35,312 nt of DNA, taken from Pseudonocardiales bacterium. Lineage in GTDB: Bacteria; Actinomycetota; Actinomycetes; Mycobacteriales; Pseudonocardiaceae. Every line of letters starts with the position of its first letter. Position 1 is the first letter of the stretch. Made by a program: the position numbers and the translations under genes. The notes under the pieces are model-generated. The model did not search any database, had not been told where the DNA came from, and worked only from the letters and a program-made list of their open reading frames with translations. This document shows, piece by piece, positions 5,413-20,364 of the stretch. Location of the stretch: NCBI GenBank assembly GCA_003244055.1, contig QHBZ01000200.1:1-35312 (forward strand). The letters run 5' to 3'.

Positions 5413-6471
5413 TTACCGGGACCAAGAGTCGGGCGGATCGACGAACGCCTGTCCCAGCTCCCGCGCCAGGGTCAGCGCTCGCCGGGCCCAATCAGGGGTA
5501 GCGCCGGCCAGGCCGCAGGACGGGGTGGGCACGCAGCGCTCGGCAAGCAGCGAACGGTCGAAACCGAGCCGGTCCACCAGATCCAGCGCCGGCCGGGCCA
5601 GAGCGGCGAGCGTAGGTGGCCCGCTGGTCGGGCCTGAGGGCTGCCCGTCACGCGGAGCAGCCGGCACCAGGCCGAGCAACACCGACACCCCGGAATCCCA
5701 TGCCTCACCGAGGGCGTCGATGGTGGCCCGGGGCGCGCCGGCAAGCAGAGCGGCGTCGACGGCCAGCGCGTCAGCCCCAGCCTCGCACAGCAGCGCCAAC
5801 GGTGGCCGCGGCGCGCAGCAGTGCACGATCCGCGGCGTGGGCAGCGCTTCGAGCACGCTGTGTAGCAGCTCTGCCGCGGCGCTCTCGGGCACCGCGGCCA
5901 CGGTGCCGTACCCGGACGGGGTGGGCACGCTGCCGGCGAGAACAGCTGGTAGGCCCGGTTCGTCTAGCTGAACGACGGTACTCACGCCGAGCCGGCGGCG
6001 CACCTCGCTCGCGTGCATCCGCAACCCCTCGGCCAGCGACGCCGCGAACTCACGCAACGCGCCAGGGTCGGTGAGCACTTTGTGCCCGCTACGCAGCTCC
6101 ACCTCGGCCGCCAGCGTCCACGGCCCGGCGGCCTGCACCTTGATCACGTCGGGTCGGGCCCCGGAGGAGTCCATCGCCTCCTCGAACGCATCGAGATCGG
6201 CGCGCAACAGATCGACGCCACGGCGATGCTCGCGGCCGGCTCGGGCGGTAACCCGGTAACCAGACGGCACCAGCTCTACGGCGAGGTCGACGAGCAGAGC
6301 CGCGGTGCGCCCGATGATGTCGGCACCGGCGCCCCGGTCGGGCAGCTCGGGCAGGTGAGGCAGGTCAGGCAGCTCGCCGATCACGGTGCGGGCAGCTTCT
6401 CGGGCGTCGGTGCCGGGCATCGAGCCGATACCGGTCGCGGAGCCAGGGGGCCAGGGAGGTCGGTCAGTCAC
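5413..6471 (-). CDS. MetE-like (UROD/cobalamin-independent methionine synthase fold) protein
   Basis: A 352-residue protein related to the C-terminal catalytic barrel of cobalamin-independent methionine synthase. It is about half the length of true MetE and lacks the N-terminal barrel. N-terminal GSATGIGSMPGTDAREAARTV matches the conserved opening of this family. The potential zinc ligands are in IVHCCAPRP (His-Cys) and TPSCGLAGA (Cys). I recall the mycobacterial Rv3015c as the equivalent next to ligA. The reaction is not established: methyl transfer to a thiol is the family expectation, an inference only. The start is a GTG at 6471. Confidence 0.85.
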   Translation of the reverse strand: MTDRPPWPPGSATGIGSMPGTDAREAARTVIGELPDLPHLPELPDRGAGADIIGRTAALLVDLAVELVPSGYRVTARAGREHRRGVDLLRADLDAFEEAMDSSGARPDVIKVQAAGPWTLAAEVELRSGHKVLTDPGALREFAASLAEGLRMHASEVRRRLGVSTVVQLDEPGLPAVLAGSVPTPSGYGTVAAVPESAAAELLHSVLEALPTPRIVHCCAPRPPLALLCEAGADALAVDAALLAGAPRATIDALGEAWDSGVSVLLGLVPAAPRDGQPSGPTSGPPTLAALARPALDLVDRLGFDRSLLAERCVPTPSCGLAGATPDWARRALTLARELGQAFVDPPDSWSR

Positions 6472-6544: not shown

Positions 6545-6590
6545 CTACACGATTAGGTGGTCCCCGGCAAGATTTACGTGCGGCTACCGA
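6545..6590 (+). repeat. Upstream repeat block, copy 1
   Basis: This block matches 7011-7057 at roughly four bases in five, with one single-base gap; both contain a shared TACGTGCG-CTACCG segment and a shared AGGT segment. It lies about 110 bases upstream of the first small peptide gene, and the partner lies at a similar place before the second. It is probably part of a duplicated promoter or regulator-binding region. Confidence 0.7.
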
Positions 6591-6658
6591 TTGCCACCGG
6601 ACATTACCGTCGGGCACGGTATGTGATGGCGAATCAGCAATACAAACGATGAGATGAC

Positions 6659-6788
6659 TTCCGTGCCCGAGACCACCTCGACCACCTTCCTTAGGGGGAT
6701 TTGATGTCTGACAAAGTGAGCCCTGCCGAGCTCGATGGGCAGCACATGGAGCTGCTGCCAGCCCGTACCGTCCTGTCGCTGTTCAGCG
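6659..6788 (+). repeat. Leader/RBS/5' coding repeat, copy 1
   Basis: These 130 bases align without gaps to 7080-7209 with high identity. The block covers about 45 bases upstream of the ATG, the ribosome-binding site (AGGGGG here, AGGAGG in the partner) and the first 28 codons. Identity falls sharply after GTTCAGCG, where the two peptides diverge. A tandem duplication with later change of the 3' halves explains this. Confidence 0.85.
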
Positions 6789-6919
6789 CCGGCGACGGCG
6801 GCACCGGCACCAACGGCGGAGACGCCGTCGGGACGCTCGGCATCAATTTATTGAACCACCCGTTGATTCCGGGCGGAGGCAACGCCGTCGGCACGGCCGG
6901 CATGTCCGCTGACGGCTGA
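6704..6919 (+). CDS. Small ELLPAR-motif peptide, copy 1 (RiPP-precursor-like)
   Basis: A 71-residue peptide. Residues 1-28 (MSDKVSPAELDGQHMELLPARTVLSLFS, in two overlapping parts MSDKVSPAELDGQHMELLPA and ELLPARTVLSLFS) are almost the same as those of the peptide at 7125. The rest is Gly/Asn/Thr-rich (GDGGTGTNGGDAVGTLG, then NHPLIPGGGNAVGTAG) and unlike its paralogue. It has no cysteine, signal peptide or clear membrane segment. ATG 6704 was chosen over the adjacent TTG 6701 because AGGGGG lies five bases upstream. A conserved leader with a variable tail is the usual look of a ribosomally made peptide precursor, but no modifying enzyme is adjacent. I recall small actinobacterial proteins with ELLPxR motifs but cannot check. 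Function unknown. Confidence 0.8.
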   Translation: MSDKVSPAELDGQHMELLPARTVLSLFSAGDGGTGTNGGDAVGTLGINLLNHPLIPGGGNAVGTAGMSADG

Positions 6920-6969
6920 TAACGCTTCGACCCGTCCGATTAAGGCTGAGTCCAGCGCTCTGGCTGGGG

Positions 6970-6996
6970 AGGGGTGGCCGCGTTCCAGCCACCCCT
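6970..6996 (+). terminator. Hairpin between the two small peptide genes
   Basis: AGGGGTGGC at 6970-6978 pairs perfectly with GCCACCCCT at 6988-6996 around a nine-base loop. It lies about 50 bases past the stop of the first peptide gene and before the repeat block of the second. A rho-independent-like terminator without a U-tract is likely, which would make the two peptides separately transcribed. Confidence 0.6.
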
Positions 6997-7010
6997 GGCG
7001 AGGTCTGCAA

Positions 7011-7057
7011 CTCCACGACTAGGTAGCCCACCGGGAAGTGCTACGTGCGACTACCGG
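7011..7057 (+). repeat. Upstream repeat block, copy 2
   Basis: Partner of 6545-6590. In this copy only 22 bases separate it from the leader/RBS block (7080), against 68 bases in copy 1, so 46 bases have been gained or lost between the two control elements. Confidence 0.7.
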
Positions 7058-7079
7058 ATCAGTAATTCAACCAGGTGTT

Positions 7080-7209
7080 TTCCGTGCCCGAGACCACCTC
7101 GACCACCTTCCCTAGGAGGATTTGATGTCTGACACAGTGAGCTCTGCCGAGCTCGACGAGCAGTGCACGGAGCTGCTGCCGGCCCGTACCGTCCTGTCGA
7201 TGTTCAGCG
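7080..7209 (+). repeat. Leader/RBS/5' coding repeat, copy 2
   Basis: Gap-free partner of 6659-6788, offset by 421 bases. It holds the AGGAGG ribosome-binding site and codons 1-28 of the second peptide. Confidence 0.85.
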
Positions 7210-7358
7210 TCCAAGACCCCGGCGGCGCCAACCCCGTAGGCGGCGTCACCCCCGGGGCGCTCACCACGTTCGTGCTCGGCGTTGCGGGCGTGCCCCACTC
7301 TTCGAGCTCCGGCGCTGACGGAAGCGCCAATGACGGCAACACGGGCGCCAGCAGCTGA
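7125..7358 (+). CDS. Small ELLPAR-motif peptide, copy 2 (RiPP-precursor-like)
   Basis: A 77-residue paralogue of the peptide at 6704. The N-terminal part (MSDTVSSAELDEQ, CTELLPARTVLSMFS) is conserved. The tail differs: DPGGANPVGGVTPGAL, a short hydrophobic run TTFVLGVAGVP, then a Ser/Asp/Gly-rich end. A perfect AGGAGG lies five bases upstream of ATG 7125, so expression should be strong. It has one cysteine, within the conserved region. The gene ends 17 bases before the convergent mnmA stop. No neighbouring enzyme specifies a modification, so its role (peptide product, signal or structural protein) is open. Confidence 0.8.
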   Translation: MSDTVSSAELDEQCTELLPARTVLSMFSVQDPGGANPVGGVTPGALTTFVLGVAGVPHSSSSGADGSANDGNTGASS

Positions 7359-7375: not shown

Positions 7376-8467
7376 TCAGCTGGTAGCGGTGATGGTGGCG
7401 CTGCCGAGTACGACATCGCCACCAGGGTCGGGCCGGTACAGCGCGACGGCCTGGCCGGGTGCTACCCCGCGCAGCGATTCTCGCAGCTGCACCAGCACGC
7501 CGTCGCCGGTTGCCTCAACGACCGCGCTGGCGCACCCGCCGTGCGCCCGGACCTGGGCGATGCATTCGAACGGGCCATCGGGCGCACCGACGGCCCATAC
7601 CGGACGGTGGGCTTCGATCACGCCCACGTCGAGATGCCGCGCGGATCCCAGCCGCACCGTGCCGGTGGCCGCCTGGAGCCCCAGGACGAACCGAGGGCGG
7701 CCATCGGGCGCTGGGTGCCGCAACCCCAGCCCGCGGCGCTGGCCAACGGTAAAGCCGTGCACCCCCTGATGGTGGCCGAGGACCTCTCCGGTCTCCCCGT
7801 CGACCAGCTCTCCGGGACGGGAGCCCAGCCGGCCGGCCAGGAACGCCCGAGTATCGCCCGAGGGAATGAAGCAGATGTCGTGGCTGTCCGGCTTGGCCGC
7901 AACAGCCAGGCCGCGTCGCGTCGCCTCAGCCCGGATCTCGCCCTTGGCGGTGTCACCGACCGGAAACAGCGCGTGCGCCAGCTGCTCGGCGGTGAGCCCG
8001 GCGAGCACGTAGGACTGGTCCTTGCCCGTGTCCACCGCTCGGCGCAGCACTCCGTCGCACAGGCGCGCGTAATGACCCGTGCAGACCGCGTCGAAGCCGA
8101 GGTCGCGCGCGCGGTCCAGCAGCGCGGTGAACTTGATCCGCTCGTTGCATCGTAGGCACGGGTTGGGGGTGCGCCCGGCGGCGTACTCGGCGACGAAGTC
8201 GTCCACCACGTCGGTGGTGAACTGTTGCGCGAAGTCCCAGACATAGAAGGGGATGTCGATGACGTCGGCGACCCGCCGCGCGTCGGCCGCGTCCTCTTTC
8301 GTGCAGCACCCGCGCGCTCCGGTGCGCAGCGTGCCGGGTTGCGCCGACAGCGCCAGATGCACTCCGACCACCTCATGCCCGGCGTCGACCGCCCGGGCCG
8401 CGGCAACCGAGGAATCCACCCCGCCGCTCATGGCGGCCAAGACCTTCATCGGTCGCGACGCCGTCAC
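7376..8467 (-). CDS. mnmA: tRNA-specific 2-thiouridylase MnmA
   Basis: Adds sulfur to uridine 34 of the Lys, Glu and Gln tRNAs, using ATP and persulfide sulfur delivered from cysteine desulfurase. The 363-residue product has the ATP-pyrophosphatase loop [14 protein letters not shown] near the N terminus, the catalytic cysteine in [16 protein letters not shown] and the second active-site cysteine in [15 protein letters not shown]. The length is normal for the family. The start GTG at 8465-8467 overlaps the stop of iscS (GTGA); an internal ATG ([10 protein letters not shown]) six codons later is possible. Sharing an overlap with its sulfur donor gene agrees with coordinated expression, an order I recall from many actinobacteria. 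Confidence 0.97.
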
Positions 8468-12222: not shown

Positions 12223-13380
12223 GTGAGCACGTTAGTACCGTTGCTGACGCGCGAGCAGATTGACTGGCTGCCTGAGCGCGCTCGTGAAGTCGTGGAGTAC
12301 CGCAAGAGCGGCCTGAGCCTGAATCACATTCAGGGCTGCCCGCTGGACTGCGCGTACTGCATCCGGCACACCTACGGCCTGTGGGACCAGCGCCAGCCGC
12401 GCGCCCTGATGTCCGACACCGAAGCGGTGGAACAGCTCGTCAGCCACCGCTACTTCCAGCCACACGTGACGCCGGTTCAGCTCTTCAACCGGGCTACTGA
12501 CCCGTTCCTACCGAACGTCCGGCCGCACACCTTCGCCGTCCTCGGAGACCTCAACGCGCGGGGACTGCGTAACCACGTGCTCGTCATCACCCGGCACGCC
12601 ATGAAGCCGGCGGGCATCGACCGGCTCAACCAGCTCGTCAACCTCAAGGTCACGTTGCTGTTCACGTACTCCGGCATCGAGGACAAGCGCATCGAGCCGT
12701 ACCCTTCGCACGTCGCGGCTGAGTCGCTGAAGTTGATGAGCGCGCCGAGCGAGCGGAAGTATCGGACGGTGCTGTACTGGCGTCCGCTGGTGCCGGGGCT
12801 CAACGACACCGATGAGCACTTGGACCAGGCGCACGCGCTCAGCCTGCACGCCGACGCCACGGTGTTCACCGGCCTGTTCTACCGCGACCAGATCGCGGAG
12901 TACTACCAGGCCAACGGCCTGCCCGAGCCCTACGAGGAGACCGCCCGCCGCAAGATCGTGCCCGAGACGCTGGAACAGCGCGTGCTCGCGGCCTTCAGCG
13001 ACTCGACCTCGTTGTTCCGCAAGACCTCGTGCGCTGTCTCCTACGCGCACGAGCTGCCGGACTACAACGGGCACTATGGCATACGCGAACTCTGCGACAT
13101 CTGCCCGCTGAGCCAACTCGACCTGTGCCAGCGTGGGCACCACGTCCCGACCGCCGAGCGGCTGCGCGAAGTCGCCCGCGACCTGCCGGAGGCGCGCGGC
13201 CTGGTCGTCGTGGACATCACCGAACGCGCTGCCGTCGTGTCCGGCCTGAGCGAGGAACAGCCGCGCTACTACCTGCAACACGCACTCGGCTTTCAGGTGC
13301 ACGACGTGCGCCACCCCCACCACGCGCACCGCCACGGCCGCGCGGACATCGGGTGGAAGGACACCCCGACAGATGAGTGA
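12223..13380 (+). CDS. Radical SAM protein of unknown substrate
   Basis: A 385-residue protein with the radical SAM cluster motif CPLDCAYC (C39, C43, C46), a CX3CX2C spacing, in GCPLDCAYCIRHTYG. Family features include SGIEDKRIEPYPSHV and RPLVPGLNDTDEH in the barrel. The spore-photoproduct-lyase-like group is the nearest resemblance I see. C-terminal cysteines C270, C291, C294 and C302 (ELCDICPLSQLDLC) could hold a second iron-sulfur cluster. The GTG start at 12223 follows a strong GGAGGAGG. The stop overlaps the exonuclease start by eight bases (ATGAGTGA). Neighbours acting on nucleotides or DNA suggest a nucleotide or nucleic-acid substrate, but this is an inference from context. Confidence 0.88.
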   Translation: MSTLVPLLTREQIDWLPERAREVVEYRKSGLSLNHIQGCPLDCAYCIRHTYGLWDQRQPRALMSDTEAVEQLVSHRYFQPHVTPVQLFNRATDPFLPNVRPHTFAVLGDLNARGLRNHVLVITRHAMKPAGIDRLNQLVNLKVTLLFTYSGIEDKRIEPYPSHVAAESLKLMSAPSERKYRTVLYWRPLVPGLNDTDEHLDQAHALSLHADATVFTGLFYRDQIAEYYQANGLPEPYEETARRKIVPETLEQRVLAAFSDSTSLFRKTSCAVSYAHELPDYNGHYGIRELCDICPLSQLDLCQRGHHVPTAERLREVARDLPEARGLVVVDITERAAVVSGLSEEQPRYYLQHALGFQVHDVRHPHHAHRHGRADIGWKDTPTDE

Positions 13381-14589: not shown

Positions 14590-15183
14590 ATGGTCGGCGT
14601 AACTACCCAGCCATGCGACACGGACATTGCCAAGCTCCGTGCACTGGCAACGCGCACGCTCAAGGAGCACCAAGACGACCGAGGGATCTGCGCCGTCTGC
14701 GGTTGTGCGCCCGTCGCCGGTCCTGCCAACCACCAGCGGGCGCCGTGGCGGACCGCGCTGGCGGCTGTGCCCCGGCACGAGTTCATCCCGGACACCGTGT
14801 GGATCGACCATGACGGCGAGGGTCCGGCTTTGGTGCCGCTGCACCGGGACGTCGATCCGGATCGGTGGCTGGAGCTGGCCTACTCCGACGATGCGGTGAT
14901 CACCCAGATCGATGACGGGCACCCAGCTGGACCGGGTCTAGCTGGGATGATGCTGGCCGCGTTGGACGCCAAACTGGGGCATCGGGTGTGCGAAATCGGT
15001 ACCGGTACCGGCCACAACGCCGCGCTGCTCGCCCGCAGACTCGGGGCCGAACACGTGACGAGCATCGAGGTCGACGCCGCCCACCGGTGGTGGGGCGAAC
15101 AAGGCAAACCAGACGTTGAGCAGTGGCGATTCACCGTCAACCCGAAAGGTCAACAGCTCGACCTCAGCTCTTGCGTTTGGTGA
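14590..15183 (+). CDS. Shrunken PCMT-like methyltransferase (probable internal deletion)
   Basis: The 197-residue product has a cysteine-pair opening ([16 protein letters not shown]), then the N-terminal part of a protein-isoaspartate-methyltransferase-like family ([20 protein letters not shown]) and SAM motif I in [20 protein letters not shown] with SIEVD. Directly after SIEVDAA, where the rest of the Rossmann fold should follow, comes a tail ([20 protein letters not shown]) resembling the extreme C terminus of full-length relatives of about 350-400 residues. So roughly half the catalytic domain is missing in frame, and activity is doubtful. The 3' end overlaps the convergent etfA stop by 20 bases. 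A pseudogene under decay is the likeliest reading; a regulatory SAM-binding remnant is possible. Confidence 0.7.
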
Positions 15184-17834: not shown

Positions 17835-17909
17835 CCCAGCAGGTCTTGCTGCCTGATCACCATCCTGGGCACCTGCCTGGTGCCTACCCAGACGTCACCG
17901 GGGGTACCG

Positions 17910-18500
17910 ATGACAACCATCACCAGCTCGCCTGACGACACAGAGACCACCGCCGATCTACTGCGGCGCGCCTGCGACCGAGATCCGAAGGCGTGGGAGC
18001 AGATCGTGCATCGATATCGGGGGGTGGTGGTCTCGAAGGTGCGTTCGTTCGCACTCCAGGACGCGGATGCCCTCGACGCGGTGCAAATGACCTGGTTGCG
18101 ACTGGCGGAGAACTGCCACCGGATACAGCTACCCGAGCAGCTCGCGGGTTGGCTGGCAACCACCGCAAGTCGGGAGTGCCTGCGCATCCTGCGGCATCAG
18201 GCGCAGCAGACCACGGCGCCATCCTATGTGGCAGTAGAGCGGATGGCTGACCCATCCGTGGGGCCGGAGCAGCACGCCATCGACGCAGACACAGCGCGGC
18301 TGCTGTGGAGTCTCATCGCGACACTGTCACCCCGCCGTCAAGTACTCCTCCGCGAGCTGTTCGTCGATAGCCCGCGACCGTACGCCGAGGTCGCCCGAAG
18401 TACTGGAATCCCAGCCGGCGGCATCGGACCCACCCGTGCGCGTGCCCTGACCCAGCTGCGGCGCAGGCTTGACGAACGCGGGCTGACCTGCCGAACCTGA
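17910..18500 (+). CDS. ECF-type RNA polymerase sigma factor
   Basis: A 196-residue sigma-70-family factor with regions 2 and 4 only. Region 2 spans about residues 20-90 (DPKAWEQIVHRYRGVVVSKV, QDADALDAVQMTWLRLAENC, LAGWLATTASRECLRILRHQ). Region 4 (LIATLSPRRQVLLRELFVDS, ARSTGIPAGGIGPTRARALT, QLRRRL) carries the HTH. The start at ATG 17910 is preceded by GGGGG; a longer start at 17880 adds an unlikely Pro-rich leader. No anti-sigma gene is adjacent. The next gene begins 43 bases later, so it heads a three-gene operon with the 150-residue protein and the DyP-type peroxidase, and it could direct that operon's own transcription. Confidence 0.92.
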   Translation: MTTITSSPDDTETTADLLRRACDRDPKAWEQIVHRYRGVVVSKVRSFALQDADALDAVQMTWLRLAENCHRIQLPEQLAGWLATTASRECLRILRHQAQQTTAPSYVAVERMADPSVGPEQHAIDADTARLLWSLIATLSPRRQVLLRELFVDSPRPYAEVARSTGIPAGGIGPTRARALTQLRRRLDERGLTCRT

Positions 18501-18543: not shown

Positions 18544-18996
18544 TTGACCGAGCAGCCACCGCAGCCCGTCCAGAATCCGCTGACCATGGTGATGAAAGCG
18601 AAGTCTGAAGAAGACTACGCCGCGCTTGCACAGCTCGTCGGGCACCTGCAATCGCTGCCACCGGATCAAAATCCGGTCATCATCGCACTGAACAAAATCG
18701 GCACGGTTCATTTCGCCCGGTTCGCTTTCCTGGGCAACGACCAACTCGCGGTGATCACCACCTACGACGGTGCCTTCGAGGTGTACATCAACGAGTTCAT
18801 CGACACTATTGGCGATATTTTCAACGCTCTCTTGGCACACGCGGCGAGCGCCCCGCCGCTACCGGTACAGATCCATCGCCAGGAATTTCTCGACTACGTC
18901 CGCAGTGTCGACGTCGGTTGTGTGGGGAGGTTCTACAGCGCCTATCCCGAGCGCACGGTGCTCGACATTCTTGGGCCGGTCGGCGCCCCGAGCTGA
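18544..18996 (+). CDS. Unknown protein coupled to DyP-type peroxidase
   Basis: A 150-residue protein of unknown function. The core IGTVHFARFAFLGNDQLAVI, then TTYDGAFEVYINEFIDTIGD, looks like a compact alpha/beta domain; sequences of this shape (HFARW-----LLF-S-YDG----Y---F) occur, as I remember, in proteins related to or fused with DyP-type peroxidases, suggesting a ferredoxin-like fold. The TTG start at 18544 is supported by GAGAGGAGAA. The gene lies 24 bases before the DyP gene and 43 after the sigma gene, an evident operon. One Cys (CVGRFYSAYP) is near the C terminus; no signal peptide or haem motif is seen. It may be an accessory subunit of the peroxidase. Confidence 0.75.
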   Translation: MTEQPPQPVQNPLTMVMKAKSEEDYAALAQLVGHLQSLPPDQNPVIIALNKIGTVHFARFAFLGNDQLAVITTYDGAFEVYINEFIDTIGDIFNALLAHAASAPPLPVQIHRQEFLDYVRSVDVGCVGRFYSAYPERTVLDILGPVGAPS

Positions 18997-19020
18997 CATA
19001 TCTCGAGGAGGAGTTCCGCG

Positions 19021-20364
19021 ATGGTGGACGTCGAACTCGCAGATGTGCAGGGATTCATCGTCCGGGGTTATACGATGCCAGTTGCCCGATATTTCGGCCT
19101 GAGTGTTCGCGAGTCGACGGGTGCCCGGGCATTTCTGACCACATTGGTCGGTAGCGATCCGATGGTTCCCTCCATTACCACGGCGCAGCCTTGGGCGATG
19201 AAGCCGGAGTACTGCGTGAACCTGGGTATCACTTTCCGGGGCCTGGCGGCGCTGGGGGTACCGCCAGGCTCCTTGACCAGCTTTCCGGTGGAATACTGCG
19301 AGGGTGCAGTGGCCCGAGCAGCCAACGTAGGTGACGTCGGTACGAGCGCACCCGACCAGTGGCTACGGTGGCTGGTGGACCCGGAGCTGCAGCTGTTGCT
19401 GATGCTGTCCGCCCAGTCTGGCTCCGCGCTCGACGCCGCGACGAAGCGACTGGAACAGTCCTGGTCCACCAGCTGCGTCGAGCTGGGTCGCCACGATGGC
19501 GCTTCGCTGCCCGACGATGTGGCGCACTTCGGATATCGTGACGGAATATCCCAGCCCACCATCGAAGGTGTTCCGCTCGCCGGGCTACCGGATCATCTGC
19601 CGCCAGCCCCACTAGGCGAGTTCCTGCTCGGATACCCCAGCCAGTTCGACCAGTTCAGCTATCCGGTTCCGGAGCCTCCCGAGCTAGGCATCAACGGTAG
19701 CTTCGCCGCATTCCGCGTGCTTGAACAAGACGTTGCCGCGTTCGCGGAGTTCGTCAGCCAGCAGGCGTTGACGACGGGATTGTCGGAAGAACTGATCGAA
19801 GCGAAGCTGTGCGGGCGCTGGCGCAACGGCACGCCGTTGGTCCTCTCACCGGACACCGACACACCCGAGCCCCCGATTCCGCCCGAAGCGATGAACGACT
19901 TCGACTACATCGGACAGTACGATGACCAGCGGGGTTACCGTTGCCCGATCGGATCGCACATTCGCCGGATGAATCCGCGCGGGCAACGCGTCGCCGGCGA
20001 TGCCGGTCACCTGCACCGCATCGTCCGACGCGGTATCGCCTATGGTCCGCCATATGACCCGGAACATCCCAGGGACGGGCAGTCTCGAGGCCTGCTCGGG
20101 CTATTCATCGGGATCAGCCTGCACGATCAGTTCGAGTTCCTCATGACCCAATGGGCGAATGACGGGATCTTCACCGCCGGGCTCGGCCGCACCAACGACC
20201 CGCTGATCGGAGCCCAGGCCAACGGGGCTGGAACTTTCTCGATACCGCAGGCGGCGGGATCGGTGACACTGCAGGGACTCACGCGATTCGTCACCACCCG
20301 CGGTGGCGCCTACTGCTTCCTGCCCAGCATCTCCGCGATCCGCTACCTGGCGACCTTGGCGTAG
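19021..20364 (+). CDS. DyP-type haem peroxidase
   Basis: A 447-residue dye-decolorising peroxidase-family protein; haem oxidises organic substrates with peroxide. The catalytic GXXDG motif is GYRDG at 171-175 (D174 the acid/base residue). The proximal haem histidine is H313 in CPIGSHIRRMNPRG, and the distal arginine is in IVRRGIAYGPPYD. The C-terminal domain continues GLLGLFIGISLHDQFEFLMT with a final RGGAYCFLPSI. It is longer than the 300-350 residue bacterial A/B classes, like class C/D members. No Tat signal is present, so it is cytosolic unless carried by a partner. AGGAGGAG precedes the ATG. Its operon with a sigma factor and divergence from tetR suggest induction by a specific small molecule. 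Confidence 0.92.
   Translation: MVDVELADVQGFIVRGYTMPVARYFGLSVRESTGARAFLTTLVGSDPMVPSITTAQPWAMKPEYCVNLGITFRGLAALGVPPGSLTSFPVEYCEGAVARAANVGDVGTSAPDQWLRWLVDPELQLLLMLSAQSGSALDAATKRLEQSWSTSCVELGRHDGASLPDDVAHFGYRDGISQPTIEGVPLAGLPDHLPPAPLGEFLLGYPSQFDQFSYPVPEPPELGINGSFAAFRVLEQDVAAFAEFVSQQALTTGLSEELIEAKLCGRWRNGTPLVLSPDTDTPEPPIPPEAMNDFDYIGQYDDQRGYRCPIGSHIRRMNPRGQRVAGDAGHLHRIVRRGIAYGPPYDPEHPRDGQSRGLLGLFIGISLHDQFEFLMTQWANDGIFTAGLGRTNDPLIGAQANGAGTFSIPQAAGSVTLQGLTRFVTTRGGAYCFLPSISAIRYLATLA

Follow-up and report, generated by a model that had tools for sequence, protein, structure and literature searches.

Two short genes lying next to each other on the plus strand interrupt a minus-strand block in the window (by which we mean the whole stretch of 35,312 nucleotides from Pseudonocardiales bacterium that was analysed), and they raise the question of what kind of peptides they encode and which protein, if any, acts on them. 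An earlier reading made from the letters of this stretch alone (hereafter, the sequence-only reading) took them for ribosomally made precursors with a fixed leader and a variable tail. Here we examine the pair, the family to which it belongs, and the proteins encoded near the other members.

Two tandem genes with a common leader and different tails

Gene 1 (6704..6919) and gene 2 (7125..7358), both on the plus strand and starting with ATG, encode putative precursor peptides of 71 and 77 aa, respectively, and are flanked by the minus-strand genes 5413-6471 and mnmA (7376-8467), confirming the tandem arrangement described earlier. The former flanking gene has no NCBIfam match, and its look, judged by eye, suggests a methionine-synthase-like protein. 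The ribosome-binding sites (RBSs) of the pair, AGGGGGA (6693..6699, plus strand) and AGGAGG (7114..7119, plus strand), lie 4-5 nt ahead of the ATG codons and are of good quality, as had been noted. The protein of gene 1, which is matched by the leader profile, consists of the leader MSDKVSPAELDGQHMELLPARTVLSLFS and the tail AGDGGTGTNGG...MSADG, and that of gene 2 of the leader MSDTVSSAELDEQCTELLPARTVLSMFS and the tail VQDPGGANPVGG...GNTGASS. Both leaders contain the motif ELLPAR (6749..6766 in gene 1 and 7170..7187 in gene 2, plus strand); we propose that the motif in gene 1 would be bound by the RRE domain described below. The leaders agree in 22 of 28 residues and in 75 of 84 bases, and the roughly 40 bases immediately 5' of the two genes are also nearly identical, whereas the tails are identical in only 13 of 45 aligned residues. 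Hence, the sequence-only reading was correct about a shared leader with unrelated tails, but it overstated the case in calling the first 28 residues nearly identical. A GC-rich hairpin without a T run (AGGGGTGGC/GCCACCCCT, 6970..6996, plus strand) between the genes is a possible terminator or processing point; it is not significant by folding (z -0.8). The pair is retained at one locus in four species: the window's own, two with a pair at the same locus (L071 and L074), and one with orthologues of both genes, that of gene 1 at the same locus (L072).

An undescribed family of short peptides

The likeness of the leaders goes far beyond chance: using the second leader as a query, we found 26 copies at E<=1e-3 on 18 contigs of the window's own genome, all with uninterrupted reading frames, and 5-22 copies in each of ten congeners, which are uncultured metagenome-assembled genomes (MAGs), nearly all labelled Pseudonocardiales. 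All of these are minimum numbers. Copies at the end of C115 and the start of C275 (both contigs) have neighbours that belong to one array in related species, so the assembly has probably split a single array there. The leader search returned mostly no copies in 26 other genera of the taxonomic family, and further homologues with the same leader occur in other actinobacteria, where short ORFs with the motif ExLPxR are found from Pseudonocardia to Streptomyces, in agreement with the sequence-only reading, which mentioned ELLPxR peptides of unassigned function in other actinobacteria. Among the 26 genomic copies, the median pairwise identity is 69% for the leader vs 38% for the tail (325 pairs), so a comparison that could have shown equal conservation of the two parts shows a far more conserved leader. 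The E, L, P and R of ExLPxR show no variation in 20 leaders sampled across the family.

A few Gly-rich types can be told apart among the tails (GRGGLGINLLNLNLFGDQTNSAG; GSAQGGLGINILSGIGILGTG; others); most tails are acidic or neutral with few Lys or Arg, and those of the window pair are less Gly-rich (28% and 20%). Cysteine is present in only 21 of 94 peptides of the genus and absent from the window pair. Streptomyces peptides carry ...AELLPGREALGRLKFSF..., and those of Thermoleophilia and Acidimicrobiia carry ...GEELPERAAMSLINAN.... Two loci (L099 on G007:C44, and L101) encode longer members with tandem-repeat tails, for example GGDK repeats or two repeats of a GGNGGIGGNGGNGTGGVGVN-like unit. 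The predicted structure of a precursor from the conserved core array is disordered (mean pLDDT 43). No Pfam or NCBIfam model matches the ExLPxR peptides, and our search of the literature for the leader sequence or the ExLPxR motif returned only accidental letter matches, although supplementary tables and subscription journals could hold a mention. The window genes are thus members of an undescribed family of short peptides with a common ExLPxR tag and differing tails.

Tails of the conserved array are under purifying selection (dN-dS <0 in bootstrap). For the two window tails the median dN-dS is +0.21 and +0.09, with intervals touching zero and bootstrap fractions above zero of 0.97 and 0.91, values that are no more than suggestive of positive selection. 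As dN is at least as large as dS in these tails, both copies may be relaxed or decaying; alternatively, the pair may be diversifying.

A common upstream region

Gene 1 is preceded by a region that is common to the dispersed copies (6548..6702, plus strand; match to profile R1 with E=8.1e-24 in the own genome), as delineated by an alignment of 52 copies and by k-mer enrichment. It comprises TAGGT/TTACGTG repeats, the promoter-like arrangement TTGCCA-18-CACGGT, the CGAATCAG element and the RBS. The putative -35 hexamer is TTGCCA (6591..6596, plus strand), of which TTGnC is invariant or nearly so in the 52 copies, and the putative -10 hexamer, 18 nt past it, is CACGGT (6615..6620, plus strand; CAnnGT in the family). 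The order in the alignment is TTGnC, 17-18 bases, CAnnGT, AATCGG and CGATGAGG, and the RBS. Upstream of the 26 copies, AGGAGGA is found in 18 and GAATCGG in 11, compared with a maximum of 8 for any word in 200 shuffles. A profile of the upstream sequence only had 21 strong hits in the genome, all of which end at one of the family's peptide genes; since the profile drew in part on these very copies, their recovery is expected, and its added value is that almost nothing else matches genome-wide. One degenerate remnant of the region (L220:7179-7255, on G000:C164; E=2.8e-4) has no peptide gene behind it.

A strict sigma70 consensus scan found no promoter at the locus. A structured RNA was considered and rejected, as Rfam gave no match and consensus folding was weak (-3.1 kcal/mol, with 2 pairs showing double changes); for these reasons we favour a putative common promoter over an RNA element. 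A mini-ORF upstream of the genes, GTG...TGATG in the window pair, was likewise dropped as a conserved feature, since the other copies do not generally have it. The corresponding region of gene 2 is truncated (7013..7123, plus strand): model positions 4-47 and 91-159 are kept and the -35/-10 block (48-90) is gone, and the orthologue of gene 2 in L072 has the identical deletion. Therefore, expression of gene 2 may depend on read-through from gene 1.

An RRE-M50 protein is encoded beside other members of the family

When the neighbours of all copies were grouped, a protein of about 450 aa surfaced at unrelated loci; it adjoins the conserved four- to five-copy array and also other copies on contig C236. 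It has an N-terminal PqqD/RRE-like region followed by a membrane part with HECGH and LDGYY, and HExGH and LDGYY are conserved or nearly so in 62 aligned sequences. All 62 match NF041824 (daptide intramembrane metalloprotease) and NF058609 (YydH/LiaK), and a few also match PqqD, ApyI or ScmD. Full-length scores fall far short of the NCBIfam cut-offs (99.7 bits vs 300 for NF041824; 39.7 bits vs 225 for NF058609, a match that indicates a homologous region only). In an AlphaFold2 model (pLDDT 84, pTM 0.80), the order beta-beta-beta-alpha-alpha-alpha, as in RRE domains, is followed by a membrane helix bundle, which together with the HExxH and distal Asp motifs is the hallmark of M50/S2P proteases. 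Foldseek with this model returned PqqD (probability 0.89, E 0.64) and SpoIVFB (probability 0.51), with no match at E<=0.001. Judging from motifs, profile matches and the predicted fold, the partner is an unnamed fusion of a putative PqqD-like RiPP-recognition domain and a predicted site-2-type intramembrane metalloprotease (RRE-M50), distantly related, by sequence, to the leader proteases of daptides and of the YydH/LiaK group. The own genome has three RRE-M50 genes. Accordingly, the window locus indeed has no adjacent protease, transporter or maturase, as remarked earlier, but other copies in this genome have a cognate protease gene beside them.

Among named genomes, 220 relatives of the protease were detected, and we took the best 80 of these 220, 79 of which had enough upstream sequence for linkage counts. 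In 71 of these 79 loci, a short ORF with ExLPxR and an RBS lies at most 1.7 kb upstream of the RRE-M50 gene on the same strand, compared with 1 of 79 on the opposite strand, most likely a peptide pair read the other way (L162), and 0 of 58 downstream. The usual number of peptide copies per locus is one to three, and the linkage holds across several orders and classes, including Pseudonocardia, Streptomyces and Thermoleophilia, though the tails are unrelated. A conserved leader with a variable core, and an RRE protein encoded with the precursor (at these 71 loci, away from the window locus), are two general features of RiPP systems that use an RRE. Taken with the existence of the family and the contrast between leader and tail, this linkage supports the reading of the pair as ribosomally made precursors.

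Leader and protease also co-occur among 201 genomes of the taxonomic family, where 27 have both, 1 the leader only, 10 the protease only and 163 neither (p=4e-24); outside the genus the numbers are 16, 1, 10 and 163, respectively (p=1e-15). These p values are only indicative because the genomes are related. The leader match in the sole leader-only genome has E=0.005, and the ten protease-only genomes possibly have divergent leader peptides. In the own genome, none of the RRE-M50 genes found lies within 5 kb of 19 of the 26 copies, the window pair among them, and the processing of these copies would therefore be in trans.

Other neighbours of the protease and of the window pair

Grouping of neighbours by blastp revealed no modification enzyme recurring within about 7 kb of the 79 RRE-M50 loci. 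A LuxR-type (LuxR/AbsR2-like) regulator recurs at 20 loci, including those of the genus; beyond Pseudonocardiales and Geodermatophilaceae, most loci lack it. A secreted protein family lies beside the protease at 18 loci in Thermoleophilia, Acidimicrobiia, other MAGs and some Streptomyces; a GxGG-rich secreted protein is encoded upstream of RRE-M50 at 11 Saccharopolyspora loci (L127-L141, L170, L184); and in the window's genus the neighbour is a lipoprotein-like protein with a GGNGYGG stretch and a DUF2807 (head GIN) domain (L041:5828-6874, L061, L067). To the eye, the proteins other than the regulator look secreted, and the secreted neighbour in Saccharopolyspora and in the window's genus resembles the peptides in composition, which suggests that the products act outside the cell.

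Elsewhere in the window, 14590-15183 encodes a truncated protein corresponding to the N-terminal part of methyltransferases of ATP-grasp peptide maturase (graspetide) systems (TIGR04188, 113 bits, cut-off 380). It is preceded by genes for an HTH regulator, a radical-SAM-like protein, a nuclease-like protein and dTMP kinase, and this segment is possibly a decayed RiPP-related cluster. The radical-SAM-like gene (12223-13380, 5 kb from the pair) has no NCBIfam match. The region 18544-20364 encodes an unannotated 150-aa protein directly before a Dyp-type peroxidase-like protein (TIGR01413, 90 bits, cut-off 100.5), preceded by an ECF-type sigma factor (17880-18500).

Discussion

We consider it rather likely that the products of the window genes are precursors and that RRE-M50 binds and cuts their ExLPxR leader in trans, releasing Gly-rich, acidic peptides. 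The PqqD-like RRE domain would dock the ExLPxR motif of the N-terminal leader, cleavage by the M50 domain would take place at the leader or a little behind it, and the Gly-rich tail would be freed at the membrane as a secreted or surface-released peptide, with one protease, encoded elsewhere, serving many dispersed precursor genes. Binding, cleavage, cut site, export and activity are what we infer in this scheme, the first two by analogy with the daptide protease MpaP and with EpeP. The product is most likely an unmodified or lightly modified extracellular peptide.

Several known systems share parts of this organization. MpaP, described as an intramembrane peptidase that relies on an RRE and cleaves off the daptide leader (PMC10036551), likewise joins an N-terminal RRE to a site-2-type metalloprotease (NF041824), and several short precursors (MpaA) with a short leader motif lie beside it. 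However, the daptide motif is ELExMEAP rather than ExLPxR; daptide precursors have an invariant C-terminal Thr, whereas 0 of 94 peptides of the genus end in Thr; no oxidative decarboxylase, aminotransferase or methyltransferase of the daptide type recurs in the blastp grouping of neighbours; and RRE-M50 scores about 100 bits against the cut-off of 300. These four differences rule out a daptide identity, and in the window's genus the precursors are dispersed, unlike those of daptides. In the epipeptide (YydF/EpeX) systems, an M50 protease (YydH/EpeP or LiaK; NF058609) matures a ribosomal peptide and may release it, and EpeP suffices for epipeptide production (PMC10885120); however, no radical-SAM epimerase recurs beside the precursors in the same grouping, and the protease here carries an RRE and reaches 40 bits against the cut-off of 225. 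In TMcins, the S2P-clan protease TmcP (DUF3267) removes a leader peptide, but TMcin precursors contain a transmembrane helix, and TmcP belongs to another family and is not known to carry an RRE fusion (PMC13252029). Class II bacteriocins have a double-Gly leader and a C39-peptidase ABC transporter nearby; the leader here carries ExLPxR in place of a double-Gly motif, and the general grouping of neighbours showed no recurring transporter of that type. We class it as a probable leader system that depends on an RRE protease, in which the precursors are multicopy and dispersed and no modification is evident; we found no name for it in Pfam, NCBIfam or the literature.

The released peptides may have a structural, a signalling or an antagonistic role. 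They could be structural, Gly-rich components of the cell surface that assemble together with a secreted protein specific to the lineage, in a matrix- or coat-like material. This is a narrower version of the product proposed above, and our confidence in the two overlaps; we regard it as possible, though on balance doubtful. The secreted proteins adjoining the protease in Saccharopolyspora and in the window's genus have a low-complexity composition similar to that of the peptides, and the core-array tails are under purifying selection, but the likeness is one of composition alone, seen by inspection, the window tails are less Gly-rich and fast-evolving, and the precursor model is disordered. 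Additional processing by a maturase encoded elsewhere, which would alter the tails besides the cutting by RRE-M50, seems unlikely to us: RiPP pathways typically have RRE proteins and precursors in several copies (PMC7470986, PMC10036551), and the relatives of RRE-M50 are RiPP leader proteases, but no modification enzyme recurs around the protease loci, and the tails have few modifiable residues in common, cysteine being scarce.

Cleavage by an M50 protease also releases signal peptides, as in pheromone maturation of the Eep type, and the LuxR-type regulator whose gene lies close to many RRE-M50 genes might sense the peptide freed here. That regulator is present in the genus, and many precursors have in common a promoter region with repeat elements, yet signals are normally few and conserved, whereas there are up to 26 precursors here with tails of roughly 40-80 residues, and the regulator is patchily distributed as described above; we therefore hold a signalling role to be quite improbable. 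Lower still do we rate the idea that most copies are non-functional duplicates spread by recombination and kept by chance. It would fit dispersed copies that bring their upstream region along, a second window copy that has lost its promoter block, window tails with dN at least equal to dS and a promoter remnant without a peptide gene, but all 26 reading frames are uninterrupted, leader and upstream region are conserved while the tails change, the core-array tails have dN<dS, and the window locus is retained in four species.

Beyond the window, we give an even chance to a wider proposal, namely, that an ExLPxR leader and an RRE-M50 protease, working without modification enzymes, constitute an undescribed, widespread class of peptide maturation in actinobacteria, and that in one soil genus one type of protease acts in trans on more than 20 precursors that are dispersed and co-regulated. 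The pairing of leader and protease offers a testable partner and mechanism for many unannotated short actinobacterial peptides, including those of culturable Streptomyces, Saccharopolyspora and Pseudonocardia, and it widens the range of RRE-fused intramembrane proteases from daptides to a system in which no modification chemistry can be recognised. It is also a case in which a single processing enzyme appears to serve many precursor genes that are not linked to it, an arrangement that genome mining based on gene neighbourhoods would miss. If this is true, one fixed leader would give these bacteria a set of extracellular peptides that can be expanded.
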